In this document: in pieces, positions 16,436 through 58,048 of the stretch
Position numbering within the stretch: the stretch's first letter is position 1
Layout of the letters: each line of letters begins with the position of its first letter
NCBI RefSeq assembly: GCF_963678975.1
Contig: NC_089272.1
Coordinates: 23,997,471 to 24,061,470, forward strand
Source of the DNA: Dysidea avara
Taxonomy: Eukaryota; Porifera; Demospongiae; Dictyoceratida; Dysideidae
Reading direction: 5' to 3'
DNA: 64,000 nucleotides
The notes under the pieces: model-generated
Database searches by the model: none
What the model was told of the DNA's origin: nothing
The model's input: only the letters and a program-made list of their open reading frames with translations
Translations under genes and position numbers: made by a program

Positions 16436-19400
16436 ATGGAATACAATCGCTCACTGGAGTATTTAACCCTACAAAGACACTACAAAATGTTTGAGGATCT
16501 CAGTGATTGCTCGCGTGTTGTAGAGAGATGTCACACGTGTGGTTTAGTGGATAAATACACACTGGAAAATATAGCGTCCACCTTAAGTACAATTGATAAA
16601 AATAGGTAAGCTCATACAATATCTAGGATAGCCCCTGGCTATCCCACCCAAAGCGAAGACCATGCCCGGACTCAGTGTTGGGCCTGGTCAGTATAGCTAA
16701 CTATATACCACTTTAGCGTGGGCGTTCAAAGGCGCCGCTCGGTGTTTAACTCGCATATTGCTCAGGCAATATCATGGGAAAGCGATTTGCCAATGACTTT
16801 GATGCCCAGCCAGTTCAAAGAAATGATACGCTTTGACTCGTTATATTGAGCGACATAGAGCTTTGCATTATGGGACTCGATTTTGTAGTGGTTGCTAAAC
16901 TGAGTATATACTCTAAGATGGACTAGTTGGTTGTTAGTAAAGGATAATGAAGGCACAAAATAACTGTTCAGTTGGGCGATCATGGATGCATATAGGGGAA
17001 TTTGTGAATTGCACATATTTATGGCGTCACGAAAAGTTACGACACTGGACGTATAAAATTTGGCAATCAGTAGACAAAATGTGAAAAAAGCAGCTCTATC
17101 AGGTACTCTTATATATTAAAGAAGGTTTAGAATTGGTTGCTAATGTTTTTAAAAGCTTTCTAGCAAGATATTTAGAGAGAAAATTCGCTAAGAGGGCGGT
17201 TTTGCTTGTACCCATGCCTGATACAGACATTGACATGACAGCCTTACTGTTAAAGCTTCGGAGCTCAAACTCCCGACACAACATTGCTGTAAACTGGCTA
17301 ACAACAAGACGTGTTCAATTACAAAATCGGGCTGCTTGTTCAGTAGAAACCTCGACTTCAAAATTGAACACGTCTTGTTGTTAGCCAGTTCACAGCAATG
17401 TTGTGTCGGGAGTTTGAGCTCCGAAGCTTTAACAGTAAGGCTGTCATGTCAGGCATGGGTACAAGCAAAATCGCCCTCTTAGCGAATTTTCTCTCTAAAT
17501 ATCTTGCTAGAAAGCTTTTAAAAACATTAGCAACTAATTCTAAACCTTTGTTAATACACAAGAATACCTCATAGGGCTGCTTTTTCACATTTTGTCCAGT
17601 CAACCCATAAATTTATACGTCCAGTTTTGGTCGGTTTTATTTATGTTCCGTATACTTCGAGTATGCGCAAATCACAAATTCCCTTATTTCTACCCACTGC
17701 ATATCAGCCTTTGAACAGACCAAAGAACGAAAAAACTACTACTGCTATGCTGAAATAGGTTAGTAACTTACAGTCCTAAGTACTTAACTTAATATAACAA
17801 CTTACTTACTGTCCCAATAGCGAAGTTAGTTGGCCTAACTTAGTACAAAAATGAGAAACAATATAAACTCAATCCCACAATCGCAAGTTTTCTAACATAG
17901 TGTGTGGAAGCACAGTAACATATTAATGATGTTTTAATGTAAGGACAACGTTTTGATGGCTATTAGCCCACGCTTTTAAAACCACGATCGATTTTCAGAT
18001 GCTACTGTATAAAACAAATGGGATGAGTTCTCGTTAGTTCTTTCACTTATTAGGTGAGTGCGCCCCAAGTGATATATATCACTCATACCATGGCTGCTTG
18101 GGATTTTGCTGACATACAGCCCTCGGGCCTGTGGCCCTCGAGCTTTGGGTGTATATATCAGCAAACTCCTTCACAGCCGTGGTATAACTATTAAATATAC
18201 TTGCTGTGGGATACATAATATTATCACTGTAAACAACTTGGCACTGCCCTATATAACTTCCGGCTGCTAATTAGACATTGGGCTGTTTCCAACTAGATTT
18301 GAATGTTTTGATTTTACATTCAATTTGTCTAGAACTGACTTAGTATTTAGAATACTATTACGTAATGTACTATAGTTAGAACACGTGTATATGGTGTGCG
18401 TTTATTGTGCTTGTAATCTAGCGTATGTCACGTGCTTTAATTCTATCAGTCGTCAACGTGGTGATCCCGACGTGTCGCTCCTATCTCTAGAACCTGGCCT
18501 ATCTAGTCTCACAGACATTGGTGCTGTGACCAGGATTTCGCCCGAGAACACATTAACACCAGCCAAAGAAGTCGTTGTACCGTGGCAAATCGTTGATAAC
18601 GGTACCCGTTAAGGCAAGCCACGAACCCATTTGATACCGTCGTTGTTTTTGTGTTAATAGCGGATCACGCTGGATAGATGGAGCAATTGTCTCGCCATCA
18701 AGCCTCTCGCAAAGGACTAAAGTCCCACGTGACGCGACTCTACAACAAGATCGATGACCTTGTTGACAAGGAAGTGGACGAGTACTCTATCGCACTACTC
18801 ACTAAAGCCATGGAACAACTCCAGGACAAGTGTGACAAGTTAAATAAAATTGATGAACAGATTATTACTCTAATTGATGAGCCTCAAGGGCTGGAAGACT
18901 ACATTATGGAATCTGAGGACCTTAAGGATGATATTGCAGACAAGTTAACAAGAGTTCAAACCTTCATAGATATACAGAAACAGCCAAAGAACACCAGTCC
19001 ACCAACAAACCAACCACAAGTGAGTCAGTCTGTAGATAGTACAAGTCCACCACAGTCAGTCACCACAGTATCACGCAGTAGTGAAGCACAAATAAGTGCA
19101 AACTTACCATCTGATACCAGCCCACCACAGTTGGATGGTGTAGCAGGGGCAAATAATATTGCAGTGTCATCAAATTCAGTAACTACAACATTGTTAACAC
19201 CTCCTGTTCAGGTTCAGCAAACCAGTAATGTGGTATCCTCTCTATCACTGCCAGAAACCCTTGTTATTAGCAATGTTGCACCACCACCTTTGATACCACT
19301 TGCCCCCACCACATCCATCACAAGTTTTGCCAATCATCAAAGTTCAGTGTTGCTGTCAGTACCTGATGCTAGAAGCTTGTACACGACATCAGTGGATCAC

Positions 19401-29072: not shown

Positions 29073-29911
29073 TACACTATCCAGACAATTAGGCACCACA
29101 AGAATTTTATACATGCTCCCATAATGATATGTAGAGCAGTTTATTCTTACAGTGCACCAGCTACTATTTTCAGAAGACACGGGTAACAATATTCTGATTA
29201 ACAGCAGCACTTGTATATGCATTCATATGGCTTCTCATAACTTTGATGCTTTGTAGAATAGGCAACACAGAGACAGTACTTTCTGATGTAGTTCGATTGA
29301 TTGTTGTAACTGGAAATGAACCTTTCCTACTTGTGTCCGTGATTAGTGATGTGTTGTACTGCAGTGCTTGCCATATCTGGGAATTGTGCACTGTCCACTT
29401 TATGGAATGGAGAGGTGTTCACTATTGAGGGAGCATTAATACACACGGGTATTGGAAGTTCATTTGGGACTTGATTAATTGTCCATTATAAAGAGGCTGT
29501 CCACCATTCAGGGGTGTCTGTTAAGAGGGGTTCCACTGTATAGTGAAGATGGTGAAGTCAGGAAGACTGAAATGCAAACAATTCAAGCAAGCACAACCAC
29601 AGAACCAGCAATGAAACATTTAAATCTGGTCGTGATTATGTTCCAGCTGAAGTTATTCCCACGAATGGGAGCTTACCTTCAACCTCTGCAATTTTTTGTT
29701 GATTCAAATAACCCAAAGGCGATGTCAATCTTTAACTCTCGAGTCAGCCCATAGAAAAACAGTTAGCTAATTACTAATTACTTAAGTGACCACGTGATGA
29801 CATGCCGGAGCAATAGCCTGTGAGAGTTGTGTCCGGCTGCCGGAACAATAGCAACTACCTATTCCAAAAAGGTTTGATCTTGTTTACTTGACCTAATAAC
29901 ACATCCCATAT
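29073..29911. other. Left flank of the Ginger-like element, no gene recognised
   Basis: Small ORFs only. A GGGGTTCCACTGTA transposon-like end lies at 29527-29540. Confidence 0.35.
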
Positions 29912-30105
29912 GTGACCGTCTCTGCAAAAACCCGACTTGTTCGCACAATTAAAAAAATCTTTTTTATTCACTCAGCAATATCAGCAGTGTCCAAGGAATG
30001 GACCACCAAAGTTTCAGCCTTCTGTGGTGTGTAGTTTTGGAATTATAGCGCTAGACAGTAGAAAGAGCAAGATAATCGATTTGTACAGTGACTATACTTG
30101 TTGCA

Positions 30106-30265
30106 TCCCGTACGCGTATTTTGTCCCATACGCGTATTTTGTCCCATACGCGTATGGGACAACCCATACGCGTATGGGATATCCCGTACGCGTATGGGCA
30201 TTTTCCCTGTCCCATACGCGTATGGGCATCCCGTACGCGTATAGGGCCCAGTACGCGTACGGGAC
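30106..30265. promoter_or_regulatory. Left sub-terminal TACGCGTA palindrome cluster
   Basis: Eight copies of the palindrome TACGCGTA in about 150 bp, most within the longer palindrome CCCATACGCGTATGGG, spaced roughly 15-30 bp apart. A smaller cluster lies near the other end of the same element. Sub-terminal repeats are commonly transposase-binding sites; that role is inferred here. Confidence 0.85.
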
Positions 30266-31477
30266 GATATAATTTAATTCTGAGGCGCTTAGCGTTGCTT
30301 GCATAGATTCAACTGGGTTTACAAATACGTAGCTTTTGCAGTTCAGTTTCATTAAATATACCTTAAATATACCTTTGTTTTGGCTGTACTACCTACTGGC
30401 ATTTTCTATGTAGAAATTACATAGCTAGCACACTGCTGTCGCGCTTATTTGTAGCTAGCTAGCTAGCTATTTGTTTGCCTCATAGTACTTCGCGCACGTT
30501 TCTTCTCCATGCTATAAGCTGCTATGTGCTGCATGTATCATATATCTGGCCTTCACCATTCAAATCATGTGGAGCATGCATATGTTGATTAAATCGGATG
30601 AACTTCTTGAGTAGTCTAGCAACCTTTTGGGCTAGCTAGTCACGAGTCCCTTGAACAAATCAGGCATCATTCTGCCTGTCCAGTAAAATATTTACTTATT
30701 TATTTATTTGCAATGTACAAACTCAATTTGAGTATTAATTCTATAATCTATAATTAATAATTGTTCTTAATGGAGTAGCGATGGGCATGTCAGTCTGCCT
30801 GTCCAGTATAATAGATAAATAGCAAATTATTTATATAGCACACCATAAATATCTAGCTATTCTATTATGTGACTGGACATATACCAGTGGTCAAATGCAT
30901 GCTGGGTAGAAATTAATGTGAATTATTGTGTAAGCAGAACTATGGTAAGTTAGTATAAATAGCTACATGCACTTCGTGCATATATAGCACAACATGCAGT
31001 ACCGGGTAAATCATTAAAATCGATTGAAAGCTGCAATTCCATGAATCAATATAATTATTATTAGCTATAACAAGCCAGGTCATAAATTAATGCATATAAA
31101 TTAGACATGGACTAAGACTACATACTTATAACATAATAGTGCTGTCAGACCTTCAGTGCAGCTGGTCACTGTAAAGCTTTACAAACAAAAGCAAACAGCA
31201 CAGCTAACATAATACCCATGCACTAACACAGAGTTCAGTCCAAGAGATTCGTTTCAACTAGTTAATGCAAGCGTAAGTGAGACTGAAGTTTACACATCCA
31301 CTTAACGGTATATAAAACTACTAAAAATCGACTGATTTTCTGACATAGGATCACATAATCATAATATCTACTCTGCACTAAGCAGTAGCAGTGCTAGCTC
31401 TACACCATGCATGTTCGCTGGGGGCCAAACACAATTTTATAAATTATAATATGCCATACATTAATATTTAACCATGA

Positions 31478-34400
31478 TTACATAAAGTCAATTACATAGG
31501 TTGCACCAGTAGAACAGCATGGTCCAATAAAGTTAACTATAGGTATATCCTCTGGATTCAACTTAATGCTAATGTGCCTGTTGACACAATTCAGGTGGTA
31601 CCACGATTCACATGTTCCACAGCCAATCTACGTATATATTCAGCTGATAGTCAATGAAACAAAGAGCAAACAACACTTACCCAATCCTGTGCTTTAGTAG
31701 CAGTGAATGAGCAGGTCCTGCAATGCTCTTCTATGGGTTCTGCAAACAAATAGATTGCTAACAACACTCATAAGTACCTTACAACTGCTTGTTTACCTGA
31801 ATTGTTAAGTATTTCTTTTGCCATCTCTATTCTTAAATCGTGAACTGTTCCAGCATGGATGTTCATTGGTAAATGTCTTAAATATTGTTCAGCAAACTAT
31901 TTTAGAAATTCTTTATGTTGTGTTGCAGAATATACTTAAGGCCATACCTTCATAACATAAACTCCACAAGACGAATTGTCTTCCTGTATACTGTGTGGAG
32001 GCGTAACGACTTCCCATACATACTTCTTTGGCCAATATCCACCACAATATTGATAGGTGCTGTAAGCGCTGCAAGAGAATTATATGCAAATAGCCAGGGA
32101 TTATATGCAAATAGCCAGGGAGTTCAAAGAATGTGTTCCTGTTGATATGCAAATTAATGTGTATACATACTTAACTAACTATGTGTGCAAAATATTAACT
32201 GTACTAACTTCCAGTTTTTTCTTATCCTTTATATTAGTCTATGATCTCTTTCTTCATACTTCTTTGGGTCAATGTAGAGAACCTTTCCATTCTTTGGTTC
32301 GACGATCTAAAGAAATAGTAGCTATAAAGATATAAATGTACAAATATGTCTGACCACCAATATCCAGTGCATCTTCTGGTAGCAGTAAGGTCCAATGAGG
32401 GCATTGTAATGAGACAAATCAACCTGCAGAAATATATGTATACAGGTGTCTGTAAGTCCTCGTAAAGTACCAACTCATACATTGCTTAAAACTTTCTTCT
32501 TAAGGATATACGTCCCATTACAAATGTCATTCACTGCAGACACGTTCATGATAAATATTTCTTCTTCCTGTGTTTGGAAGTGAGCATGCACATAATGCAT
32601 ACATTCATATGCACTAGACTTTTCTATGTATTATCTCTAACCTTTTTGTTGGCACGGATCATGTATAGTAGATAAGATGCTATCACCTATATACAACATA
32701 TATACATATATGCTTGCTTGCATAAAGTTTACAAGCACGTACTTCATCAGTAACCCATCCATTGGTGTCGATCAGTGACAGAATTCCCTCGTCGTAAACT
32801 TTGTAACTACCAAACTTCGCTTCAAAAAGCATCTGGGTTTTGTTTCTGATTCTCATTAATCGGCCTGCATGATAGCAATATTATGCAGACAGATGATATA
32901 CCGGGCACAAAACCTTCGGTTTGATAATCATTTTCATCAACTTCTTCATCTGATGAATTAGGACAATACTGATGAACTACCCCTCCTGCAAAATAAAGAT
33001 GAAAATGAATGAATGAAAAGTGTAGATAGAGAAAAGTAGTTACAGCCTACAAAATATCCTTACGGGATTTGTGCAAGTGGAAATAGTCAATAAGTACATT
33101 AGCCATTGTAGGCTCTTCTTGATTCAATAAGTCGGCTGTTTGTTTGTTTGTCTCTACATCATCCTTCAAATCATACATTTTGTTGGTAAACTTTTGCACA
33201 ATTGTGATTGGAACTGGTTCCTTGTGAGCATAGCAAAGATCCTTCAAACATTTCTGGTCTTCATAGTTATCCACAACATAGCTGTGCAGAAATGCAGCTG
33301 GTAAGTTGGTTTTGAGACTGTTAGATATGTATTCATGGGCAGGCCCACATGGCTTAAACAAAAACGATGGATGGTTCTGTATAATAGTTTTCATCTTCTT
33401 GCTAAGTTTCACGATTTTGTCAAACTGAAAGCTGTTCCCTGGTGGAATATCTTCATTGCTGAAAATTTCATGACCCCCTAAAATGTATAATCCATGCAGA
33501 TTAACACACACCTACATGATTGAATTTATTTCTTACCTTCAAGCTTAGGGCTGGTTTCTTCTACTGACATACTACTGGCTTCTTCTTCTACTCCCTGGAC
33601 CCCAGAACTACCTGTTGTACCAATTCATCTTATACCGATGATCTACCCGTGCATGTACATTTACTTAGACATATCCATGACAAATATGCTATGTATGGGG
33701 AGCATTAAAGATATTGTGTGTATGTCCATGCAGATGTTTCAATGCATCTCACTTCAACATAGTACATGCAGTGTACCCTCTACCATTTGGAACCAAGAGT
33801 TTGACCAATATGTGACCTGGGCTGACAAAATCAGTCTCTTATAGCCTGTCAAAATTTGACCTACTTTTAAATGCTTGAAGCTACATTACTTTGTCCATGA
33901 TTATAGCTAGCATCCACATAAACGTTTAACCACTTATGTAAAAATTGCTTACAATTTTAATGAAGTTTACAGAATTATTCTAGGTCAAATACAGTGATGG
34001 AGATAGACAAGATTCAGTAAACATGTGTATTTTCGGGATATACACTGATTTTGTCAGACTGGGTCACATATTAATTTTTATGTGGACCAGAACTCATGGG
34101 GCTAATATTTTTTGTCCTTATTACAAAGTTATTTTTAGAGACAGGTTCTATTGTAACTATATGTAGCTGTAATATCATGTCTGGCATGATAGTTATTGTA
34201 TGCATATGTGCTCACATCCATCCCGAGCATTGCTGTATGATGGCTCTAGGTCAACCTGTTCCCTCTTCACTGGAAAGCTATCACTGCCAATTTGTTTTGT
34301 CTTCACTGAGGTGCTTCCTGTACGATTCTCATTAGCTTGTTCACCGGTCTCAGTGTTCAATGGGCAACTATCATCAATGCTAGAATCATCTGCTGTCAAA

Positions 34401-36960
34401 GTGGAATATAATTATATTATACTACACAAAAATAATTACTATTCATACCGATGACTGAATTCTTGCATCTTGTCCCTTTGTGGCAATATGTTGTGCATTT
34501 TACTTTGCTTTTGAAACATACACATTTGCCATTTACACAACCAGATTTGCAATTGCAGTGTGAAACATCAGTTTTCCTTCGATTGAATTTTTTTGCAGCC
34601 GATCGCAGTGCTATTGTGGGATCATCTTCCCACCCAGTGGTTTGTACTGTTGCATGAAAGCACTTCTGAAGCTGGTCAGTTCGACATCTTCCTTTCAAAA
34701 GTCCATACTCGGTTTTTATTTTGTAAGACCCATGTTGTTTTGCAACCACAACTCCTGGTATTCTTCTCAAATCACCTACACCTCTGTCATGTCGTGGAAT
34801 CCTTACAGTCACACCATCCCCAATTTTAAATTTTACAGCCTTGATTCTTTTGCTGTTATCATAAAGTTTCTTCATTTTAGCAGCTGAATTTGCAATGTTT
34901 TTCTTTGCAAACTGTCTAACTTCATGGTGCCTGTCTTCATTTTCTGCATTAATAACAAACAAAGCAGCTGCAATGGCAATTTTAAATCATTCCCCTTATA
35001 CCTGCTGGAATGATAGGTGTCTGCTGTCTGAACTCTGTGTCACCAACACAGGTTCTGGCCTTGGCCACTTCAGGTTGCGTAGCCTTGGTCACCGGATCAG
35101 AGTAAGAATCTGTGTTACCTAGCTCTGTCAAATCATCAGTTTCTGTGGGAGGATCCATAATAATGGTCTCTTCTTCTGCCAAACACATTCCTTTCACGGG
35201 TTCAGAAGATGGATCTAGACCAAACACCACTTGGTATGGTGATGTTTTAATGGTCGCATGTGGTTGCTTATTGATTGTAACTGGAAAAACAAAATTATAT
35301 ACAATAATTGGCATCAATAGCACCTGTTTTAAATAAAACTTACATTGAACTCTGGGAAGAAACTGAACCCATTCTGTTGTCTTCATGTCAGCCATGAGTG
35401 AAGTGAGCATGTGTTTCACCACTCCGTTAGCTTTTTCAACACACCCATTTGATTGGGGGTGCCTTGGTCTACCTCGAATTAAAATTGTTTCTTGACTCCA
35501 CTCATGAACAATCGTCTCAAAAAGCTATAAAGGAATGCATAAAATACAGCATGCACCTAGACAGTTGTCTTTCCAACCTCATTGTTGAATTCTCGACCAT
35601 GATCAGATTGGAGTATCTTAGGTACCCCAAGGTATGCGAAAACATATCGTTGCAAGCACAAAACAGTTTCTGCAGCACACTTCCTAGATTGTGCCCATAG
35701 AATGGAAAACTTGCTAAAGTGATCTTTGTAATGACCAATCCATCTGTTGTTGCTGTCTGGGATGCTTGACATGTCAATCAAATCAATCTACAATATGAAG
35801 TATATATATATAATACACTTATTATGTTATTCCTGCATAAATGGAATATAAAAGCAATATTATTTACCTGTCCACGAACATGGAATCTCTTTGAAATGAT
35901 GGGTTTCAAAGGAGCTTTTGTTAATTGAGGCTTCTTACAAGAGCAAGTGAGGTACAGTCTGCAATATTCCTCTACACAAGTTCGTGTTATCCCTTCGTAG
36001 TTTGACGAAATCTTCAGGCGAAAGAATGAAAATTATTGTGTGGCAGTGCTTATACCGCTTACACATACAGTGAAAATGTGCATTTTTAATAATGCAATAA
36101 TGACAATAGCAGCTAGGGAGTGTACATAGTTAATGCATTAATGCTAGCTGATTTATTAATAACACTCATATAATTATATTATACTATTATGCATACCACT
36201 GAATAAGTCTTCCTAACACCCGAGTGTGCCGTGCCTTTCTCATGAACAGACTGGATGATATCAAATATATCATCTGTTGTTACTACTCTTCTATAGCCTT
36301 CAAACAGAGAATTGGCCGGAACCTATATATATTAATGAGACATGCATACATGTGAAAATAGCTATAGCTATATATCTCCAAATTTTATAGGCAGCTACAT
36401 AATATATATTAAAAAGATTTAGCCACTCACACATTGAAAGGGTCTGATATATTTTGCGTTAAAAACTTATTTCTCCAATTGCAACAGGGTATAATATTGA
36501 GACAGACTGTCAAGTACCCATGCATACTCCATAGTTAATGCCACCGACATGCGCGGTGTTGAAGGAGCGCGCGGCCGTGTTAAACTCACCATGCTCTTGC
36601 TCTTTGTAGGAATGATCACAGCATTATTTAATCCAATCTGCGGAAAATCTTTCAGTTCAAACTGCTTCTCCTTGACGTACTGCCTAAATCTTGGTTTAAT
36701 TTCGTAATCGTCCTTGGAATTACCACCATCTTCCGAGCCATCTTCAGCTCCGTGACCAGAGTGGTCTAATGTACGAACGAAAGAGGAACATTGAACTACA
36801 GCCTATACTACACAGCCGCTTAGCTACCTTCAAGCAAGGTGGCCTTGATTAAATCGAATTTCTCACGGTTAAACAAAGAATTAGAACGTTTCGCGGCCTG
36901 GCTAGCTAGGAACTCGTTAAATTCTCTCCAAACCCTTTCCACGGAAATTTTATCATCCAT
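31478..36960 (-). CDS. Integrase-CXC-ULP1-PHD protein, 21 exons, 1104 aa
   Basis: KRBA2-like integrase. Exons (minus): 36960-36828, 36765-36590, 36322-36197, 36011-35868, 35787-35578, 35524-35344, 35280-35002, 34967-34449, 34392-34216, 33611-33537, 33477-33064, 32985-32902, 32864-32743, 32686-32642, 32567-32481, 32423-32358, 32306-32260, 32068-31948, 31896-31797, 31739-31681 and 31627-31478. All have GT/AG borders and matching phases, total 3315 bp. Domains: H2C2 finger about 130-170 (VHEKGTAH ... CVEEYC). Integrase core about 194-320 with D195 (IDLIDM), D255 (LQSDHGREF) and E293 (NGCVEKANG). CXC module about 554-586. ULP1/C48 peptidase about 700-1035 with H943 (MHW), D959 (YIDP), Q990 and C996 (SSCGVYV). 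PHD finger about 1042-1092. Presumed to cut and join transposon ends in the nucleus; the protease may act on SUMO-like modifiers. The start is the only Met in exon 1. If the donor after exon 9 is not used, a stop at 34193-34195 gives a 655-aa integrase without protease. The exon 9-10 join is the least certain. Confidence 0.82.
33812..34067. mobile_element. GTGACC-ended MITE, 256 bp, inside the Ginger-like gene
   Basis: The inverted ends GTGACCTGGGCTGACAAAAT and GTGACCCAGTCTGACAAAAT are flanked by ATAT on both sides (33808-33811 and 34068-34071). It sits in the proposed intron between the integrase half and the protease half of the 21-exon gene. Confidence 0.85.
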
Positions 36961-38402
36961 CACGGCATTCAAGCGGGACTCGATACTCTCAGGTGATACT
37001 CTCAGGTCATAAACTATACTGCTAGCAAACACTATAGGATTGCATGCATCAGCACTTGTGGCGGCAAATAAGCTCAGTAAAGCGAGCAGCAAAGAGATCA
37101 AAAGAGAGGTGTTAAATTATAGAGAGAGCATGTATCAGGCACTGATACAGAAATATATATTATCAAGAGTTCATAATATTATGAAGGGAGGTGGCTGGTC
37201 CAAGTTCAAACTGAGAGAATAGAAGTGTAGAATCTACATAAAATATATAATCAACCCAGACTGCTTTTAATTCTGTATATAATATAACCTGTAACTTTAG
37301 TTTTGTAATTTAATTTTTTCCCTTGCCATGCCCACTGCTGTCCACTGTTGGTCAGACATGTGGTCGCATGTTGTCCGAGGACACATTCTCTTGTACACAA
37401 TATAATATAATTTGTTTGTAATCAGTAATTCGTGTTTTCTCAACAATTATTAATGATGGTTTCTTCTTCTATACATAATATATACATGGACAAAATGAAA
37501 GTGAGTTTTAGTAGGACTCGAGCATGATTAATGTATCAGATAATGAGGGTGGTGATAGCTACTGACCATATCCATGGCTGGTGTACGACTTACAGTCTAG
37601 ATAAACACATGATGAGTCACAGTGTACTCTTAGTACACTGTAGGCTAGCATACTGCACAGCATGCCCTGCTAGGAATAAAAGGGCATTCTTCCCAATTTT
37701 TGAATATCTATCTTCCTGAGATTAAAACCATAGAAGAAAATCTTTTAAGTCTAGGATTTGTTTAACTATTCTTACTACCAACTGCCTATGCTATATAGAC
37801 TCACTTCTCCTCTACATGCTGTCAATGGTATGAAACTAGTATGTAAATGCATAGCCACAGTATTTTATTATTTTTTGGCAGGAAGTAAAGGCATGCCTAT
37901 GCAATTCACAGGCCAAGCAAGGTGGGTGCCTAGCCACCCCATCCACTCCCTGGATCAGCCCTGGCCCTATGCATGTGTGGCAAAGGCCACATGGGTGAGT
38001 GGTTGCTAGGAGCATGTTCGATTGTTGACTGGATAGCCACTTCACTTCCTGCTTGGATGGCTCCTTGAGGTATTGTTGCTCAGCAGTTGCTATCGGTGAT
38101 GCTACATATTACTTAATTGCCCCATGCAATGAAGTAATTTTCTCTAGTTATAATGTTGTTTATGACCCACACTGTTAAAAAGGATGTTCCCAGTACACCT
38201 TTCGGGGTGTCCCCCACATGTTCCAGAATAGCTAGCTATATACATTAGCTATACACTCCTGCATTTGTTGCACCTTTGCAATTTTAACTCTTCTAAGTGC
38301 TGATAGTTCAAATCAGGATTCAGGATACCAGCTGCTTTATCTATAAGTTAGTTTTGCATTAAGAATAAATATTATATTAAACTTGATATCATGCTATAGC
38401 TA

Positions 38403-41400
38403 GTACGTTCGCGTTGAGCTGAACCCTCAAAAACGATTAATAACTTACGATTGCTACATCGCACGGGCCTCCTGTATTGCTCGATACGTAGCGCTTCTCA
38501 ATCCGCTAAAAATATATTAAAAGCGCTTCATTCGAATGTAAGACACTCTAGTTATGACACTGCAAAGTTTCTCCATACATTTTCAATGGGGAAGCCTCTA
38601 AAGCGCGGCCCTTTGATATTCATGTTGACACATGTTTGTGGCGAAGCCAGACGTCACACTCCCGCCCTCAACACGCATGATATCACCATCTGTTATGTAA
38701 GAGGCTGTAATACACTTTTGCAAGAAAAAATAAACAGTTTTTGTGTGTGTAAAACAGAGTTGCGTGAGTAGAAGAGCTGGGGCCACTGTTGCATTGTATT
38801 TAGAAGGTAAGTGGCCCACTTATCTTCAGGGGAAAAACCTCTTTCAGCCATTAAGAGTAAAAACCCAAATTATAACAGCTCAAGTACTTTTATCCAGCAT
38901 AGGTGAACCTGCAAGTGAGGCAAACAACATGTTTTTAACTTCACATTTACCACACAGCTGCTTATTCTCTCCTATTCCCATCTAGTCAATTTGTCATTTT
39001 AATCCTTTTCCCATCACTTTGTGCACATGCCATACAAGCCGTTTCAAATCAGCACCTGGTTCTCAAAGTCACATTCCCACAGAACTCTACAGAAAGTTTC
39101 ACTAAATGAAATACTGTTTGTATGCATTTGGACCTATAATACCTTTAGTGACTTTTAAACACTCCTGCACTGATCAATATACACAATGTCTGGTATGTTC
39201 ACCTTCTGCAAGCATAATAAAGTAACAATAACTTTGAAAGTGCATGCACTTACACTTCATCTGTTGTTTTTTTTCATGTACTTTGCAGAGTTCAATCCCA
39301 GCCATCCGATGACTCCTGGAGAACAACATACAAGTTGTAACACTAGTATTGTAAATATCAAACAATCTTACATCAGATGAAGTAGGCTCAGAAGAAGACT
39401 CGGACTCACTGTTGCTGGTGGTGGAGGAGTCATTAATACCACCATCACCACCATCACCATCTTCACTATCGCTACTATCACTGCTGACGTGAATGAGGAA
39501 TCGTTCTAGAAGTTCCTCATGAAGTCCATCCTGTTCCCAGTAATGATCTTCGACTTCTTCTTGAACGTGCTTTATCAAAGATTGCCACCTCTCAGATGTA
39601 ACAGCCTCAAATCCTTGATAAACCAGTTCCTTAACTTCAGTCAAAGTAAACCTAAATAGATGCCAAACTATAACAATGTCCATAACAATGTTGATATACC
39701 TCTTATTGTTCCGCTTTACGTGTCCCTTCACTTGACTCCAGGCCATCTCAATAGGATTCAGTTCACAGTGTGCAACTGGTAGTCTGACTACTTCATGGCC
39801 TATTATTATGTTAGCCGAAAGAACTGGGATCACAACAGTATACCAGAAAAAAGCCATACCAGAAAAATGTCAGAGCCACAATGTATACACTTAACATACC
39901 TTTACTTCCAGCTATCTCATCTATAGCATATCTTGCAGGAGTTTTTGCTCGTTTGATGATTTCCCACAGATCTCTTTTCAGTAAACTTTCTGGATATGCT
40001 ATACCTGTGAATCATCATACAGTCACATACTGAAACAGTGACAGTATATACACACTGCCTTATGTTTCTTATTTAACCACTCTTTCAGCTGTGCTTTTCG
40101 CCACTTTTGCTTTGGTTGCTCCTCCAAGTGGCGACTGCAGTTAACACAGTAATGTTTACAGTTGACAAATCTAATACCTACCTATGGTAACTGGCATTGT
40201 CCATTACAATCAGACAATTGGCTGGTAATGCTGGAAGTAACTTTTCTTTAAACCACCTTTCAAAATTCTCTGCATTCATTTCTTGATGGTAATCAGCTGC
40301 AGATCCTTTCTTGGCTTTAAAAACCCAATCACAACCTGAAAGAACAACTGTGTTTACTGGATACTTCACATCATAGAAAATTACCGGGAACCCATCCATC
40401 TTTGCCTCCAGCATGTAAGATAATAAGGCGCTCTCCTTTACCTGATGGCTTGCTATGTATAAATTAGGTTAAACAAGCATACTTTTGAAAGCTATTTAAC
40501 CAACCTGACTCCTCCTATAGTCCCCCCAGTAGTCTTATCAGCCTCTACCCAGGCTCTGGACTTTCCATCATGCGCATTGGCCCAAGTCTCATCCAAGTAC
40601 ACCACTGGTTTCCCTTCAGTTCTGTTGCGCCTCATTCGTCTCAAATATTTATGACGCTGATGGACTATACGGGGCTGCTCATAGTATACCCTGCATGTAT
40701 GTGTAGTAAAATTAAAACACACAAACTGGTACAATACTAACCTCTTGTCATTAATCGTTCTATGCTTGAATCCCATATCCTTCAATACCCTTCTAAGTGA
40801 TGTTCTTCCCCCCGGAGAAAACACCATCATTCTGGAGTTTTGACTGTAGACGGAGTAACAAAACCAAAGGCTCGAGCGTTCAAATTCACCCACCAAAATC
40901 TTCGACAGTGATAGATTTTCTTTCTTGTCGTATAACGAATGTATTTTCCGTCTGATTGCATCCCGGTCGAAACTGTCTGCATCGACACGGATTCGTGAAC
41001 GTTTGTACCTGCAGTGACGATTAGATGAATAGAGTAGCCTCCTGCAAACTACTTTTGTACCTTTTTCTTGGCGTAGAAAACCCGCCTTTCTTGCGGTACT
41101 CCATCCTCACTCTTACAATAGATGACTCTGAAATCCCTACGTGGCGAAATCAATACCAAACCCAGCTGCAAAGATATTTAATACCAGTGGCCTTAGAGAT
41201 TCTCTGCTTCACATTGACGGAAACTTTAGACTTGTTCGCTTCTTGCTCGAAGTAGGTCCATAGCTTCATGAGTAGAAACTTTGTTTGGCTGTTTAACCTC
41301 TTTCCAAGAGGGTTTCGTTCCGCACTCACTAACGCTGCACTGGACGCCATATTTTCGACAATTAAGTGCGCGCCCGTAACATGAGCTTACGAATAAATGC

Positions 41401-41482
41401 GTCATGAACATCATGTTTAAAGCCTTTGATCTTGTATGGCTTCTTAATCACCAACCCAGGGTTCAGCTCAACGCGAACGTAC
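38403..41482 (-). mobile_element. Tc1/mariner-type transposon, 3080 bp, nested
   Basis: The inverted ends GTACGTTCGCGTTGAGCTGA (about 25 bp, near perfect) are flanked by TA on both sides (38401-38402 and 41483-41484). It carries one minus-strand multi-exon DDE transposase gene. Insertion into the larger transposon makes it the younger of the two. The left third (38430-39170) is non-coding. Confidence 0.9.
39360..41350 (-). CDS. IS630/Tc1/mariner DDE transposase, multi-exon
   Basis: Starts at 41350 (MASSAALVSAERNPLGKR). The first three exons are 41350-41185, 41136-41061 and 41008-40894, with consistent phases, and give a helix-turn-helix-like N-terminus and a basic linker. Catalytic motifs lie in separate exons: VVYLDETWAN (first Asp, about 40595), LIVMDNASYHR (second Asp, about 40205) and ELNPIEMAWSQVKG (Glu, about 39755). 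Extra exons between the second Asp and the Glu (SRHLEEQPKQKWRKAQLKEW; GIAYPESLLKRDLWEI) give roughly 85 residues between them, far more than the 34-41 of classic Tc1/mariner. The DD82E Sailor-type group is a possible home. The C-terminus is acidic and Ser-rich (SSDSSDSEDGDGGDGG). One frame break is apparent in a run of six C at 40808-40813 (plus strand); otherwise the gene reads well, so this copy may be recently dead or the run may be miscounted. Confidence 0.8.
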
Positions 41483-41746
41483 TATAGCTTTACTGTTTTA
41501 TTCACATACAATAGACTGTGTACTACACCTTCATGCAAGTTCCAGTAAAACTATAAAAGTCATTTTTCTCTCCACGCCATGTCAACCCATTGAAGCTGTC
41601 GATAGCGAATTAAGCGCCTCTAAAATCATTTATCGTCTAGCCAATTCATTCAGTTACAGCTAGATAACAGTGATTTTGTAGTGCAACAAAGCTATTTGGA
41701 CAAGATCTAGGCGTGCATAGTAAGATGGAACCTATTTCAAAACATC

Positions 41747-41789
41747 GTCCCATACGCGTATGGGCATCCCATACGCATGAGGGACACAA
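41747..41789. promoter_or_regulatory. Right sub-terminal TACGCGTA palindrome pair
   Basis: One full CCCATACGCGTATGGG and one degenerate copy (CCCATACGCATGAGGG), about 470 bp from the right end of the 12.3-kb element, in the same style as the left cluster. Confidence 0.8.
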
Positions 41790-42296
41790 CATACTGAAAA
41801 TAAACTACAGGCGCTTACATTCGCAGCCATAACGTCTGTTTGGATTGGTCTACAACATTGCAATTTGCCTTAAAACGTTCACCATGGATCAGCACATCAG
41901 CCAAGGTATAGTATTAGCCTTGTAGATACTTGCGCAAATGGATATGAAGGCGGTTTCGTAGAAGAAACGATGACAATCTTGTTTACGTTTACCGCATCGT
42001 AAACAAACGCACGTGACACGCATACCGTTGGAGCTAGGGAAACGAAACAACGATTTTCGAACTCTTCATGAACAGGCGAATAAGATGGTATATAGTTTTA
42101 ATCGATTTGAGTCTTCCTTCTTCAAGTACTGGCTCGATAAAAACTTGCGTAATTTTTTTTGTAGCATGCGTAATTTTACGAATTATTTTTAAATTTCAAT
42201 TTTCTCAATACGCATGCTTGTGCGAACAAGTCGGGTTTTTGCTGAGACGGTCACATATGGTTTAGAGTTGTATACACAATACAGTGTGGCCTTAAT

Positions 42297-43465
42297 TAGT
42301 AGATCGCTATCAAAGGGTTTCTATCAACAATTGCTATTCTGATTTATTTCCAGTAGTTTCTGATGTTCCACAGGGCAGTATTCCTGGTCCTTTGCTGTTT
42401 TTAGTTTACATCAATGACATGTCTTCATACATTCATGAAAGCCAACTACTCAAATTTGCTTATGATGCCAAGTGCTTTATCCATGTTAGTACACTCTCTG
42501 ATCATAAGGCTCTTCAAGATGATATCACTGCTCTTTTAACTTGGTCAAGGGATGTTGATCTGGATTTTAGTTTAAAGAAATTTATTCATTTATCATTCAA
42601 ATGTAAACTCGACACCTCTTATTCTATGTCCAATTCAATTATACCTCATGTCGATTCTCATAAAGACCTTGGATTAACATTATCTGAAGACCTAAGTTGG
42701 GATAAACATTACAAAGACATCACTGCTCGTGCATACAAAATGCTTGGACTAATTTGCCGTACCTTTTCCCCCACTCATTCACCTTCTACATTGGTTAGAC
42801 TGTATGTATCATTGGTAAGATCACAGTTACTCTACTGTATGCAAGTTTGGTGTCCTCACTTAATGAAAGACATTTTAAACCTTGAAAGAATACAACGTTG
42901 TGCCACTAAATACATCTTGAATGATTACACTAGTTGTTACAAAGACCGTTTGATAAATCTGAGGCTCTTTCCTTTAGTATACATATTTGAACTTCAAGAC
43001 ATACTGTTTGCTATTAAATCTATCAAATCACCAACTAATCAGTTCAACATCAATAACTTCATCACTTTCAACTCTACCAATACTAGATCAGGCTCCAGCA
43101 ACAAACTCTTGTTACCTCAACATCTTAACAACATATCGCGACATTCATATTTTCATCATTCTAGACCTAAACATGTCAGTTTGTTTGCTGAAATCTAAAC
43201 TGAAATCATATCTGTGGGACCATTTCCTGACTAACTTTGATGAAAACAACAACTGCACTCTACATTACTTATGTCCATGCTCCAGAAGTCACTAAACTAA
43301 ACCTCCAACTACCAATTTTAATCACTTATAATCTTAACTATGTAACTATGTAATTACTTAAGTAGTTAGTATTAATTGTACGTATTTTATGGCTGTTGGT
43401 TGCTACCAACAGACCTTTGGTGTTTTTTTTACACCATAAAGCCTAAAATAAATAAATAAATCTGT
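42297..43465 (+). mobile_element. LINE fragment (RT C-terminal half and 3' tail)
   Basis: A plus-strand frame from about 42297 to 43198 covers the last part of a LINE reverse transcriptase: QGSIPGPLLFLVYINDM, then the catalytic box as FAYDAKCF where FADD is expected, so it is inactive. The thumb and C-terminal part (LVRSQLLYCMQVWCPHL, LERIQRCATKYILNDYTSCY) follow, and a frame change near 43150 leads to KSKLKSYLWDHFLTNFD. The 3' tail has two consecutive hairpins (CTGTTGGT/ACCAACAG at 43391-43410; GGTGT/ACACC after it) and ends in AAATAAATAAATAAA. It is 5'-truncated just 40 bp right of the Ginger-like element. Confidence 0.85.
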
Positions 43466-44125: not shown

Positions 44126-47100
44126 CAAAGACCAGCATTGTGGTACTAGCTTTCATCGTTTGCCATTCAAAGAGCCTGCCTTGCTGAAACACAGTAAGAT
44201 TTTTTATGAATGTCATTTTAATGTGCGTGTCCTGGCCAAACTGAAATTGGTGAATCCACTTATTTGAAGATCCGAATGCTCGTGTTTGTAGCCACCATTT
44301 CAAAGAGGATGGCTTCATTAAGAAGCCTAAACTGGACGGTTTTACACACAGGTTAGAGTCGCTGTGCCAACAATGTTTTCATTTTGTACACCTGCCAAGC
44401 GTAGGAAGCCAGAAAAAGTAAGGCTGTGCGTCGTGCCATAATATATATGTATGAGCTGTTACCTGGTCTTAGCGGCTTGAGCAGTCCAAAGCCCTCTACA
44501 AAGAATGCGGAAGTTAAGTGTGGTGAGAACTAAATCTGACACTTAAGATATGCCAGTTTTATCGGACAAAACCAGTGTGTCAATATATATACCACTTTAG
44601 CGTGGGCGTTCAAAGGTGCCGCTCGGTGTTTAACTCGCATATTGCCCGGGCAATATCATGGGAAAGCGGTTTGCCAATGACTTTGATACCCAGCCAGTTC
44701 AAAGAATCGATGCGCTTTGACTCGTTATATTGAGCGACATAGAGCTTTGTATTGTGGGACTTGGTTTTGTAGAGGTTGCTAAGCTTAGTACATAGGCTAA
44801 GATAGAGTAGTTGGTTGTTACTAAAGGATAATGAAGGCACAAAATAATTGTTTGGGCGATTGTGGATGCGTATTTCTACCCACAGCGTATCAGCCTTTGA
44901 ACAGACCACGGAACAGCAAAGCTACTACTGCTACGTTGAAATAGGTTAGTAACTTACAGTTCTAAGTACTTAACTTAATATAATAACTTACTTACTGTCC
45001 CAATAGCGAAGTTAGTTGGCTTAACTTAGTACAAAAATGATAACAATATAAACTCCATCCCACAATCGCAAGTTTTCTAACATTGCGTGTTGAAGCATAG
45101 TAACGTATTAATGATGTTTTAACGTATGGACAACGTTTTGATGGCTATTAGCCCAAACTATTAAAACCACAATTGATCTTCAGATGCTACTGTATAAAAC
45201 AAATGGGATGAGTTCTCGTTAGTTCTTTCACCTATTAGGTGAGTGTGCCCCAAGTGATATATATCACTTGTACCATGGCTGCTTGGGATTTTGCTGACAT
45301 ATACACCCGCAGCCCTCGGGCCTGTGGCCCTCGTGCTTTGGGTGTATATATCAGCAAAATCCCTTGCAGCCATGGTATAACTATTACATAAATGGAGTCG
45401 ATACCAGAAATGGATGTTGGCATGCAAACTGACATATTCTTGAGTGCTTCTTCCCCCATCCCACCAGGCATAGGAAACTTTTAGTTTTGATGATGATGAT
45501 TATGATGCAATGAAAGACTCCTTGTATTATTACGTGTATGCCAGCTATTGACTTTTTAGGACACAAGAGCAAGATAAGTCATGTCATCTGGATGACAATG
45601 TAAGAGAGACCATTCAGGACAATGACAATACAGAAAATTCATAGTTTTCAAGTCCTGACTGCTAACTTTGTTTCAACAGTGTCATGGTTGTGGTCTAGAG
45701 GTAGAGTTGAAGACTTCCACTGTAGGTACAATGCTGGTAGTTGAAGATACATGCCCTGATGGATACGTATTACACTGGCAGTCATAGCCATCAGTAAATT
45801 ATACCCCAGCTGGTAATCTGCTATTGGCTGCAGCTCAACTTCTCTGTGGTCTGACCTTCACGATTCACAAGCATTGCTAATTTGGCAGATGTGTTAAATT
45901 TATCAATGTTTTGTGAAAAGCACCATTATTACTTTCAGAAATAGTAGGTATATCCTGTTGTGCACACCACCTACACAAGGCAACGGGAGGCCATAATTGA
46001 ATACTTTAGAGGGAGCCATCTACACTTGTCTGATGATGGTTGTTATGACAATCCTGGTTATAGTGCTAAATATTGCAAGTATACCCTCACGGACACTTCC
46101 ATGGATCTAATCCTTGACTACAGTCTACTACATTGCACTGACACTGGTAGTTTAATAGCTATAGAAAAAGAAGGATTGTGACAGTGCCCTGACAAGTTGA
46201 TGGTACAGCACAGTGCCAGAAATAAGTTGGCCATCGGCCATTTCCGAACAAAATCACGTTTTTACCAATTATTTGGAGGCTTGTTCAGTCAAATGTCCGA
46301 CATGCAGCAAGACACAGTTGGTAAAAGCTCAAATTACACGCAAGCTATAGCGGATGTCACTGGGGAATGTCACATCAAGTTGATAGCGTACCTCACAGCT
46401 GCTCAATGTCCCAACGATGATGCGACTCATGGGATGTTATCACGTGATCCCCATACAGACAACTAATCTGGCACTGCCGACCTTATTTAGGCACTTATAA
46501 GCACCCCGAAAAATAGGATCTGGTCTGTCTAGCATTCAGGACTTGTGCTTAGGAATGTGCAATTACACTGCGGCTCACATTGACAACCATACTAAGAGAT
46601 CGCAAATAGTGAAGAATCCAATCACGACAGGGATGCTTTAGGGATTTCAATCAGTTATTTTCTATGGGCGAGTGATGTTTAGGCTGTGGAGGTGATATTT
46701 CTACTTTTCGAGGGAGGGCGTCTATTACACACGAATGGTAAATGGATATTGTCTCTGGTTTATTCACTCTGACACAAAAACAACTCACGCAACTTTTGTT
46801 TAGTGATTTTTGTCCAACTTTTGTATCGGGGCACTTATAGGCATCTAAAATAGGGTCAGCTGCTCCAGGCTAACAGATGACAGGAGATTCGTTCTAATAT
46901 TTAGAAGCACACATTAGTGGATTTAAACTTAAGTTGTTTTGTGAAGACTTTGAAGAGTGGAAGCGTTTAGACTATCTACATTTGAGGATATTCAAGTCTA
47001 CTGAGCAAAGGGATTTAATGCAACTTGTGCCTAGTTTTTGGTGGCATCCAGTTGAGCCGCATTGGCTGGCAGTGATTCGCCCCTCATTTGACATGGATAT

Positions 47101-54247: not shown

Positions 54248-54402
54248 TTCATTTCTTTTTGTATTTGTATACCCCAAAGCCGGCCTATGGCCAGCTTTGG
54301 GACTTTTTTAACCTATGTTTTTTTTCTTTACTACAGGAAGAAGAAAAGATGAAGTAGATGTACTTTAAATATTTTATCATTAAATGTACAAATTATATAT
54401 AT

Positions 54403-54639
54403 GTGACCGGATTTGCGAAAAGGGGTCTTCCACACACATCCAATTTACGAACTTTGGCAGTTCATAATGTCAGATAGGAAAATAGTATTGCCTTGCAATT
54501 TGGACAGTGATGAGTAACAACATAGGTTAATACATGAACAAAATTTCAGGTTAGTATCTTCTTTGAGCACAAAGGTATCGTCATTCAAGTTCATAGAATT
54601 GGATGTGTGTGGAAGACCCTTTTCCGTAAATCCGGTCAC
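54403..54639. mobile_element. GTGACC-ended MITE, 237 bp
   Basis: The inverted ends GTGACCGGATTTGCGAAAAG and GTGACCGGATTTACGGAAAA are flanked by ATAT (54399-54402 and 54640-54643). The whole sequence is largely palindromic (ACACATCCAATT near both ends). Confidence 0.9.
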
Positions 54640-54652
54640 ATATAATACATAT

Positions 54653-54756: not shown

Positions 54757-57700
54757 GGTGATTTCTTTGCAGCTGAACTCTCTACATGATGGTTTCTTTG
54801 TAGCTGAACTCTCTACAAGGTAATTTCTTCTAGCTGATCTCTCTACAGGGAGATTTATTTGTAGCTGAACTATCTACAGGTAACTTCTTCTAGCTGATCT
54901 CTCTACAGGGTGATTTGTTTGTAGCTGAACTCTCTACAGATGATTTGTTTGTAGCTGAATTCTGTACAGGTGATTTGTTTGCAGCTGAGCTCTTTACAGA
55001 ATGGGTTCTTTGTAGCTGAACTCTCTAAAAGGTAACTTCTTCTAACTGATCTTTCTACAGGGTGATTTGTTTGTAGCTGAACTATCTACAAGGTAACTTC
55101 TTCTAGCTGATCTCTCTACAGGGTGATTTGTTTGAAGCTGAATTCTGTACAGGTGATTTGTTTGCAGCTGAGCTCTTTACAGAATGGTTTCTTTGTAGCT
55201 GAACTCTCTACAAGGTAATTTCTTCTAGCTGATCTCTCTACAGGGAGATTTGTTTGTAGCTGAACTCTCTACAAGGTAACTTTTCTAGCTGATGTCTCTA
55301 CAAGGTGGCTAGTTTGTAGCTGAACTCTCTACATGGTGGTTTCTTTGTAACTAAACTTTCTACAAGGTGACTTCTTCTAGCTGATCTTTCAATAGGATGA
55401 TTTGTTTGTAGCTTCACTCTCTACAAGGTAACTTCTTCTAGCTGATCTCTCTACAGGGAGATTTGTTTGAAGCTGAACTTTCTAAATGATGGTTTCTTTG
55501 TAGCTGAACTCTCTACAAGGTAATTTCTTCTAGCTGATCTCTCTACAGGGAGATTTGTTTGTAGCTGAACTATCTACAAGGTAACTTCTTCTAGCTGATC
55601 TCTCTACAGGATGATTTTTTCGTAACTGAATTCTGTACAGGTGATTTGTTTGCAGCTGAGCTCTTTACAGAATGGTTTCTTTGTAGCTGAACTCTCTAAA
55701 AGGTAACTTCTTATAACTGATCTTTCTACAGGGCAATTTGTTTCTGGCAGAATTTTCTACAGGGTGATTTCTTTGCAGCTGAACTCTCTACTTGGTGGTT
55801 TCTTTGTAGCTGAACTATCTACAAAGTAACTTCTTCTAGCTGATCTCTCTACAGGGTGATTTGTTCGTAGCTGAATTCTGTACAGGTGATTTGTTTGCAG
55901 CTGAGCTCTTTACAAAATGGTTTCTTTGTAGCTGAACTATCTACAAGGTAACTTCTTCTAGCTGATCTCTCTACAGGGAGATTTGTTTGTAGCTGAACGA
56001 TCTACAAGGTAACTTCTTCTAGCTGATCTCTCTACAGGGTGGTTTCTTTGTAGCTGAACTCTCTACAAGGTAACTTCTTCTAGCTGAACTCTCTACAGGG
56101 TGATTTGTTTGTAGCTGAACGATCTACAAGGTAACTTCTTCTAGCTGATCTCTCTACAGGGTGGTTTCTTTGTAGCTAAACTCTCTAAAAGGTAACTTAT
56201 TCTAACTGATCTTTCTACAGGGCAATTAGTTTGTGGCTGCATTTTCTACAGGGTGATTTCTTTGCAGCTGAACTCTCTACATGGTGGTTTCTTTGTAGCT
56301 GAACTCTCTACAAGGTAACTTCTTCTAACTGATCTTTCTACAGGGCAATTTGTTTGTGGCAGAATTTTATACAGGGTGATTTCTTTGCAGCTGAACTCTC
56401 TACATGGTGGTTTCTTTGTAGCTGAACTCTCTACAAGGTAATTTCTTCTAGCTGATCTCTCTACAGGGAGATCTGTTTGTAGCTGAACTATCTACAAGGT
56501 AACTTCTTCTAACTGATCTTTCTACAGGGCAATTTGTTTGTGGCAGAATTTTATACAGGGTGATTTGTTTGCAGCTGAACTCTCTACATGGTAGTTTCTT
56601 TGTAGCTGAACTCTCTACAAAGTAACTTCTTCTAGCTGATCTCTCTACAGGGTGATTTGTTTGTAGCTGAACGATTTACAAGGTAACTTCTTCTAGCTGA
56701 TCTCTCTACAGAGTGATTTGTTTGTAGCTGAATTCTGTACAGGTGATTTGTTTGCAGCTGAGCTCTTTACAGAATGGTTTCTTTGTAGCTGAACTCTCTA
56801 AAAGGTAACTTCTTCTAACTGATCTTTCTACAGGGCAATTTGTTTGTGGCAGAATTTTATACAGGGTAATTTCTTTGCAGCTGAACTCTCTACTTGGTGG
56901 TTTCTTTGTAGCTGAACTATGTGCAAGGTAATTTCTTCTAGCTGACCTCTCTACAGGGTGATTTGTTTGTAGCTGAATTTTGTACAGGTGATTTGTTTGC
57001 AGCTGAGCTCTAAACAGAATGGTTTCTTTGTAGCTGAACTCTCTACAGGGCAACTTCTTCTAGCTGATGTCTCTACAAGGTGACTAGTTTGTAGCTGAAC
57101 TCTCTACATGGTGGTTTCTTTGTAACTGAACTTTCTACAAGGTCACTTCTTCTAGCTGATCTTTCTACAGGGTGATTTGTTTGTAGCTGAACTCTATACA
57201 AGGTAACTTCTTCTAGCTGATCTCTCTACAGGGAGATTTGTTTGTAGATGAACTCTCTACAGGTGATTTGTTTGAAGCTGAACTCTCTAAATGATGGTTT
57301 CTTTGTAGCTGAACTCTCTACAAGTAAACTTCTTCTAGCTGATCTCTCTACAGGGTGATTTGCTTGTAGCTGAACTATCTACAAGATAACTTCTTCTAGC
57401 TGATCTCTCTACATGGTGATTTGTTTGTAGCTGAATTCTGTATAGGTTATTTGTTTGCAGCTGAGCTCTTTAAATAATGGTTTCTTTGTAGCTGAACTCT
57501 CTCAAGGTAACTTCTTCTAGCTGATGTCTTTACAGGTCACTAGTTTGTAGCTGAATTCTCTACATGGTGGTTTCTTTGTAACTGAACTCTCTACAAGGTA
57601 ACTTTTTCTAGCTCATCTTTCTACAGGGTGATTTATTTGTAGCTGAATTCTGTACAGGTGATTTGTTTGTAGCTGAGCTCTTTAAAGAATGGTTTCTTTG

Positions 57701-58048
57701 TAGCTGAACTCTCTACAAGGTAACTTCTTCTAGCTAATCTCTCTACAGGGAGATTTGTTTGTAGTTGAACTCTCTACATGATGGTTTCTTTGTAGCTGAA
57801 CTCTCTGCAAGGTAACTTCTTCTATTGATCTCTCCACTGGGTGATTTGTTTGTAGCTGAACTCTCTACATGGTGGTGTCTTTGTAGCTGAACTTTACAAG
57901 GTGATTTTTTCTAGCTGAACTATCCCTTTCCATAGTTGCATGAACTCCCTACAAGGTAACTTCTTCTAGCTGATCTCTCTACAGGGTGACTTGTGTGTAG
58001 CTGATCTCTATACAGGTTTCTTGTTTCTAGCTGATCTCTTGAATTCTC
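54757..58048. repeat. 31-bp satellite array, copy 2
   Basis: About 105 monomers of the same family as 1-2712, but with array-specific variants: AGCTCTTTACAGAATGG (near 54989, 55167, 55660, 56761), TTCTGTACAGGTGATTTG, and GTGGCAGAATTTTATACAGG. The left border lies inside a MITE and the right border runs into the shared tail. An open minus-strand frame of 115 codons (56706-57053) simply reflects the 31-bp periodicity and is not a gene. Confidence 0.95.

Follow-up and report, generated by a model that had tools for sequence, protein, structure and literature searches.

A Ginger-type transposon within an older miniature inverted-repeat transposable element, with a nested insert and gene lesions, in the sponge Dysidea avara

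Organization of the locus

We analyzed a 64,000-nucleotide stretch of the genome of the sponge Dysidea avara (C1:23997471-24061470, hereafter the window); the genome searches covered 550.8 Mb in 108 contigs. The subject is the 12.3-kb span at 29912-42254 of the window, which the original prediction had taken for a single full-length Ginger-like transposon. We found that this span is a stack of elements: a host miniature inverted-repeat transposable element (MITE), a Ginger-like element with its boundaries at 30099-41791, a nested 3.1-kb transposon and a small MITE in an intron. The predicted type, the presence of both ends and a multi-copy family were upheld, whereas the predicted boundaries and the intactness of the element were not. 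Overall, we conclude with high confidence that a Ginger-type element entered an older MITE of 646 bp and later acquired the nested insert and the gene lesions, and that this copy is most likely non-autonomous. The components are given below by window position, with the strand where one was assigned; TIR denotes terminal inverted repeat.

29908..29911: ATAT, target duplication flanking the left end of the host MITE (read directly; 21 of 22 two-ended MITE copies have 4-bp duplications)
29912..30098, + strand: left half of the host MITE, its first 187 bp including the 37-bp TIR (MITE copies pass from here directly to 41791 onward)
30095..30098: TACT, target duplication flanking the left end of the Ginger-like element
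30099..41791, - strand: Ginger-like transposon, 11,693 bp including the nested insert, with TGTTG...CAACA ends (delimited from other long copies)
30103..30267: left subterminal array of CCCATACGCGTATGGG-type palindromes
31478..36960, - strand: transposase gene model of 21 exons, start codon in exon 1 (36960), last stop at 31478-31480
31478..31739, - strand: exons 20-21, PHD finger
31797..32864, - strand: exons 13-19, Ulp1/SENP-like protease (His 935, Asp 952, Cys 1006)
32229..32231, - strand: in-frame stop codon in exon 17, found only in the window copy among 20 read
33807..34072: 266-bp MITE within intron 9, a fixed component of the Ginger-like family
34449..34943, - strand: exon 8, C-terminal integrase region and CXC-like cysteine motif
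35344..35787, - strand: exons 5-6, integrase core with D195, D255 and E293
35868..36322, - strand: exons 3-4, H2C2 zinc finger, with Tyr in place of the expected Cys ligand at residue 165 (codon 35952-35954)
38401..41484, - strand: nested 3,084-bp transposon with 27-bp perfect TIRs and a DD85E transposase of the DDE_3 type
39292..41350, - strand: nested transposase, open 11-exon model, 502 residues
41749..41787: right subterminal ACGCGT palindromes
41792..41795: TACT, target duplication flanking the right end of the Ginger-like element
41792..42254, + strand: right half of the host MITE, terminating in its TIR
42255..42258: ATAT, target duplication flanking the right end of the host MITE

Transposase gene and domains

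As had been predicted, the transposase gene can be modeled in 21 exons whose 20 introns have GT/AG borders and consistent phases, and the model starts at the same residue as the D. avara proteins P0096 and P0122. The H2C2, DDE integrase, CXC, ULP1 and PHD modules that had been proposed were all found together in this model, the CXC module as a CXC-like motif. A Pfam search identified Peptidase_C48 with an E-value of 2.8e-10, and rve (7.8e-6), PHD (5.8e-5) and Integrase_H2C2 (3.6e-4) were recovered below the curated cut-offs. The Ulp1 part matched SENP2 at 8.2e-8, and His 935, Asp 952 and Cys 1006 aligned with residues of SENP2 that we take to be the SENP triad. The integrase residues D195, D255 and E293 were invariant in 16 of 16 aligned proteins. 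Pfam did not report the CXC motif for the whole protein; the segment alone gave TCR at 0.0012, below the cut-off, and a PDB search with the CXC alignment returned no match. Ten positions of this CXC-like segment were invariant across ten segments. Rfam gave no match at the gathering threshold and ARAGORN no gene. The D. avara NCBI protein P0001 agreed with our model over 762 of 762 aligned residues; the model behind it begins inside exon 5, uses an intron-12 donor that omits four residues of the 21-exon model and terminates at a TAA in exon 17.

State of the copy in the window

The claim that the gene needed no repair did not hold, as the TAA at 32229-32231, where the NCBI model also stops, is in frame when exon 17 extends to the donor with which the usual Ulp1 fold is preserved, and it cuts the Ulp1 domain. 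None of the 19 other copies read had this stop; one of them, L063, was out of frame further on. A second lesion affected the zinc finger: residue 165, a zinc ligand, was Tyr in the window. All 15 aligned relatives have Cys there, as do P0096 and P0094 and all four of the other copies that were read at this position; one of the four, L138, carried a stop of its own nearby. As evident from L063 and L138, other copies are also decaying. With the stop, the zinc-finger substitution and the nested transposon, the window copy is not intact.

The frame remained open only with alternative splice choices, the best of which joined a donor at 32259 to the exon 18 acceptor; the original prediction may have read the gene through this donor. 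Splicing at 32259 would remove the stop and could leave the window copy functional, but we consider this very unlikely, since the same donor drops the stretch beyond the catalytic Asp that aligns with SENP2, is not used in the NCBI model and does nothing for the zinc ligand, which this copy has lost as well. Because of the stop in Ulp1 and the lost zinc ligand, the window copy is most likely non-autonomous and inactive.

The nested transposon in the 5' region of the element was 3,084 bp long, with perfect 27-bp TIRs and an open 11-exon model for a 502-residue transposase. This protein matched DDE_3 at 3.2e-12 and had 85 residues between its second Asp (D300) and E386. The site of the insert was empty in 4 of 4 other copies covering it; the empty site reads GCTATAGC/TAGCTTT, as against TAGTACG...CGTACTA for the insert, and we compared it with the target duplication of the Sailor (DD82E) elements, for which TATA or TA and catalytic spacings of DD78E-DD111E are given in the relevant passages of PMC8533490. 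The nested element has a DDE transposase of the same IS630-Tc1-mariner type, and its spacing of 85 falls within the range given there, a likeness of features rather than of position in a tree (PMC8533490).

The outer ends belong to a MITE family

The sequence GTGACCGTCTC occurred twice in the window (29912 on the + strand, 42244-42254 on the - strand), against 0.22 occurrences expected at no more than one mismatch. The ends at 29912 and 42254 were identical at 36 of 37 bp with ATAT on both flanks, as had been predicted. These 37-bp inverted ends (the GTGACCG pair) and their ATAT duplication belong to a MITE family of about 646 bp that is distinct from the coding element.

The leftmost 100 bp of the span were used as a genome query, which gave 1055 first-look candidates and 40 scored matches; 30 loci were fetched, the window among them. 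The coding part was absent from the DNA read in all 29 other copies of the left outer end. Both ends lay within the locus in 22 of these 29, and the remaining seven were read over 14 kb each. Perfect 4-bp duplications flanked 21 of the 22 two-ended copies (ATAT in 15, ATTT in three, AATT in two and AAAT in one), the exception being L030. The ATTT, AATT and AAAT flanks rule out a 2-bp TA duplication, which we had considered for the outer ends. Both terminal regions of the MITEs were 87-99% identical to the window span, and all but one of the 22 two-ended copies joined the opening 177-188 bp of the span to its last 464 bp or so. L013 was joined at other points, and L029 had an additional insert. 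Four of the seven 14-kb reads (L004, L020, L023 and L025) showed the same plain join; L008 carried an insert downstream of it, L015 had two inserts, an unrelated one of 485 bp at the join and one beyond it, and the right end of L017 was not found within the 14 kb read. We also observed that the 485-bp insert of L015 sits a few bases from the point where the Ginger-like element entered the window's MITE copy. An exact outer-TIR pattern had no match in viral_contigs.

The insertion point was read through without the element in 20 of the 22 two-ended copies, some with single-base variants. The MITE sequence across this point is GACTATACTGAAAATAAA, and the window has TACT on either side of the element; an element-free host MITE at this locus would be expected to read GACTATACTGAAAATAA. 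A genome search for the end pair had been suggested as support for one large transposon, and ends drawn from two unrelated MITEs had been named as its refutation. The search did yield other copies with 4-bp duplications, but these formed a MITE family without the coding part, and the second outcome was nearly what we found, both ends belonging to one MITE.

Boundaries of the Ginger-like element

The element's own ends are at 30099 and 41791 (TGTTG...CAACA), with TACT duplicated. Its other copies were identified with a 359-bp stretch of the Ulp1 region, which gave 23 matches in the genome: the window, 21 others over the full query and one partial. Seventeen of the 21 were 99% identical to the query, one was 98%, two were 94% and one was 93%. 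The 22 full-length matches (93-100% identity) lay on ten contigs and were mostly 99% identical, an intron included. For 20 of the 21 full matches besides the window, short pieces from the end regions were fetched. Similarity of these long copies to the window stopped at 30099 and at 41776-41791, where the MITE halves meet; there they ended in TGTTGCATCCC on the left and GGGACACAACA on the right, in flanks unlike the MITE. Allowing one mismatch, the left end was present in 14 and the right end in 15 of the 20 copies, and both were located in 12 when four mismatches were allowed. Nine of these 12 had perfect 4-bp duplications (GTTC, AAAT, CCTG, TGAG, ATCA, TCAA, TTAG, TCAA and ATTA).

Several observations weigh against this delimitation. 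Matching flanks were absent in three of the 12 (L048, L060 and L054, the last with a left match at four mismatches), and one or both ends were not found in 8 of the 20 copies, within the short stretches fetched. Flanking sequence was common to L052 and L053 and to L055 and L061; these pairs look like duplicated segments, and thus the copies are not all independent insertions. The lack of GTGACCG ends in the pieces of the long copies also carries limited weight, the right-hand pieces being too short in some copies to exclude one by themselves.

The span could alternatively be a single 12.3-kb transposon bounded by the GTGACCG ends, with the 646-bp MITEs as its internal-deletion derivatives, and the MITEs do match both terminal regions of the span and have 4-bp duplications at their ends. 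We regard this as extremely improbable, since the other long copies diverge from the window at the inner points, where they have ends and duplications of their own, and since the MITE reads straight across the point at which the element in the window is bracketed by TACT; derivation of the MITEs by deletion is overturned by that divergence. Based on the paired TACT, the uninterrupted MITE in 20 of 22 copies and the long copies' own ends and flanks, we interpret the coding element as an insertion into the MITE. The locus illustrates that, where one element sits within another, the ends of the host can be mistaken for those of the insert.

The element's own ends agreed at 16 of the first 21 bp and then faded. 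Without the nested insert, its length is 8,609 bp, and six other two-ended copies, L048 and L060 included, measured 8,611, 8,613, 8,620, 9,071, 9,163 and 9,187 bp. With its 22 full-length Ulp1 matches at 93-100% identity, the family is multi-copy and looks young. The part read of the 266-bp MITE in intron 9 did not differ in any of four other copies, a fifth piece lying outside it, which rules out a MITE private to the window copy and indicates that it predates the spread of the family.

Relatives of the transposase

A protein query returned 35 matches and a profile query 167, of which 120 were listed. Among the matches listed were KRBA2-like proteins of molluscs, lancelet, rotifers, arthropods, Trichinella and other sponges, together with three further D. 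avara proteins. P0096 and P0122, on contigs with the lengths of C5 and C2, were nearly identical to the window protein. P0094, on a contig with the length of C1, was a second, diverged relative, with 225 of 373 aligned residues identical. The alignment with the KRBA2-like integrases (e.g., P0003 of Littorina saxatilis and P0010 of Branchiostoma lanceolatum) spans 594 residues at 25-34% identity and takes in the H2C2 finger, the DDE core, the C-terminal region and the CXC-like motif. Of the 15 relatives aligned, most stop shortly after the CXC-like motif, whereas the Dysidea element continues into Ulp1 and PHD; when the Ulp1-PHD half served as the query, the Dysidea protein was the sole match in a pool of 2641 candidates of comparable length. 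A tree was built from 44 integrase cores, with P0122, P0117 and P0103 excluded for covering too little of the core; in it, a KRBA2-like clade of 28 rows (support 100/97) stood apart from eight Gypsy integrases (100/99) and two OTU proteins.

A domesticated, KRBA2-like host gene in place of a mobile element is also extremely improbable. NCBI names the relatives KRAB-A domain-containing protein 2-like, and KRBA2 is tabulated among mammalian integrase-derived domesticated genes (in the table of PMC3257199), but the 22 full Ulp1 matches are spread over ten contigs at mostly 99% identity, intron included, and copies have defined ends and 4-bp duplications at different sites.

Comparison with Ginger1 and Ginger2/Tdd

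The termini of the Dysidea element are of the TGTNR form (TGTTG/CAACA), the target duplication is 4 bp, and the H2C2 finger, DDE core and C-terminal Ulp1 are all present. As described in the passages of PMC2836005 on these groups, Ginger1 has CCGG/CCGT targets, a GPY/F motif, a YPYY motif upstream of the zinc finger, OTU or Ulp1 domains, TIRs of about 40-270 bp, a length of about 2.6-7 kb and 0-4 introns; Ginger2 has RTATAY targets and no GPY/F, and Ginger2/Tdd has TIRs of about 50-180 bp, 4- or 5-bp target duplications and integrases that group with TDD-4. The Dysidea element resembles Ginger1 in its TGTNR ends, 4-bp duplications and C-terminal Ulp1, and a PHD finger occurs in one Ginger1 family (PMC2836005). 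It differs in its targets, its size of about 8.6 kb and its 20 introns (PMC2836005), and its core is not close to the Gypsy integrases in our tree. With Ginger2/Tdd it shares the integrase-type DDE transposase with H2C2, the TGTNR ends and the 4-bp duplications; in contrast, its targets are not RTATAY, its TIR is short and imperfect, and it has the Ulp1 and PHD domains that go unmentioned in that description of Ginger2 (PMC2836005). The inverted repeats at its own ends fall short of the TIR ranges given there for both groups.

None of the ten duplications (TACT in the window and the nine others) was CCGG or CCGT/ACGG, and none was TATA. Neither the query nor any of the 15 KRBA2-like relatives contained a literal GP[YF]; the test is weak because the motif turned up in only 3 of 7 Gypsy controls and in 0 of 2 OTU proteins. 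Endogenous nimaviruses also differ in their targets, as their Ginger2-like integrase is associated, in the passage of PMC10871703 concerned, with insertion into (AT/TA)n. Since its targets fit neither group, we file the element as Ginger-type in neither Ginger1 nor Ginger2, a separation made on their descriptions, the tree holding no named Ginger2 reference. A literature search pairing Ginger transposons with sponges matched no paper, although wider Porifera wording did return matches; the main text of the published chromosome-level D. avara genome does not contain the words "transposable" or "DNA transposon" (PMC12909245). We tentatively suggest, as a possibility a little short of even, a third, recently active Ginger-type kind in sponges, with a KRBA2-like core joined to CXC, SUMO-protease and PHD parts in a 21-exon gene, TGTTG...CAACA ends, subterminal arrays of ACGCGT palindromes and no sequence preference in its 4-bp targets.

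Proposed mechanism and history

In the proposed history, one copy of a Ginger-type cut-and-paste family entered the older 646-bp MITE, with duplication of TACT. Mobility was most likely provided by the integrase-like DDE transposase, with its H2C2 finger and DDE core, which would recognize the ends (TGTTG/CAACA), possibly by way of the ACGCGT palindromes in the subterminal arrays, and join them across a 4-bp stagger at targets without evident sequence preference. Judging from domain identity, the CXC-like, Ulp1 and PHD parts probably act by DNA or chromatin contact and by SUMO removal; participation of Ulp1/OTU proteases in transposition has been suggested in the Discussion of PMC2836005. The DD85E transposon later jumped into the 5' region of the element, and the gene gained the stop in Ulp1 and lost the zinc ligand, most likely leaving a copy that is no longer autonomous. 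If this is true, a DNA transposon that combines an integrase with a SUMO-protease arm has recently spread through the genome of an early-branching animal and left about twenty near-identical copies there, and the role in transposition proposed for Ulp1/OTU (PMC2836005) becomes testable by comparison and assay.

Other features of the window

Directly beside the host MITE, an open frame at 42296-43198 looks by eye like part of a non-long-terminal-repeat reverse transcriptase. A repeated segment of about 520 bp, 91% identical between its two copies, was present at 17685-18197 and 44871-45390. Two long satellite arrays with a 31-bp unit, alike in sequence, occupied 1-2693 and 54757-58039, and a MITE with ATATGTGACC ends at 54398-54644 adjoined the second array, with a second copy of its start near 54638.

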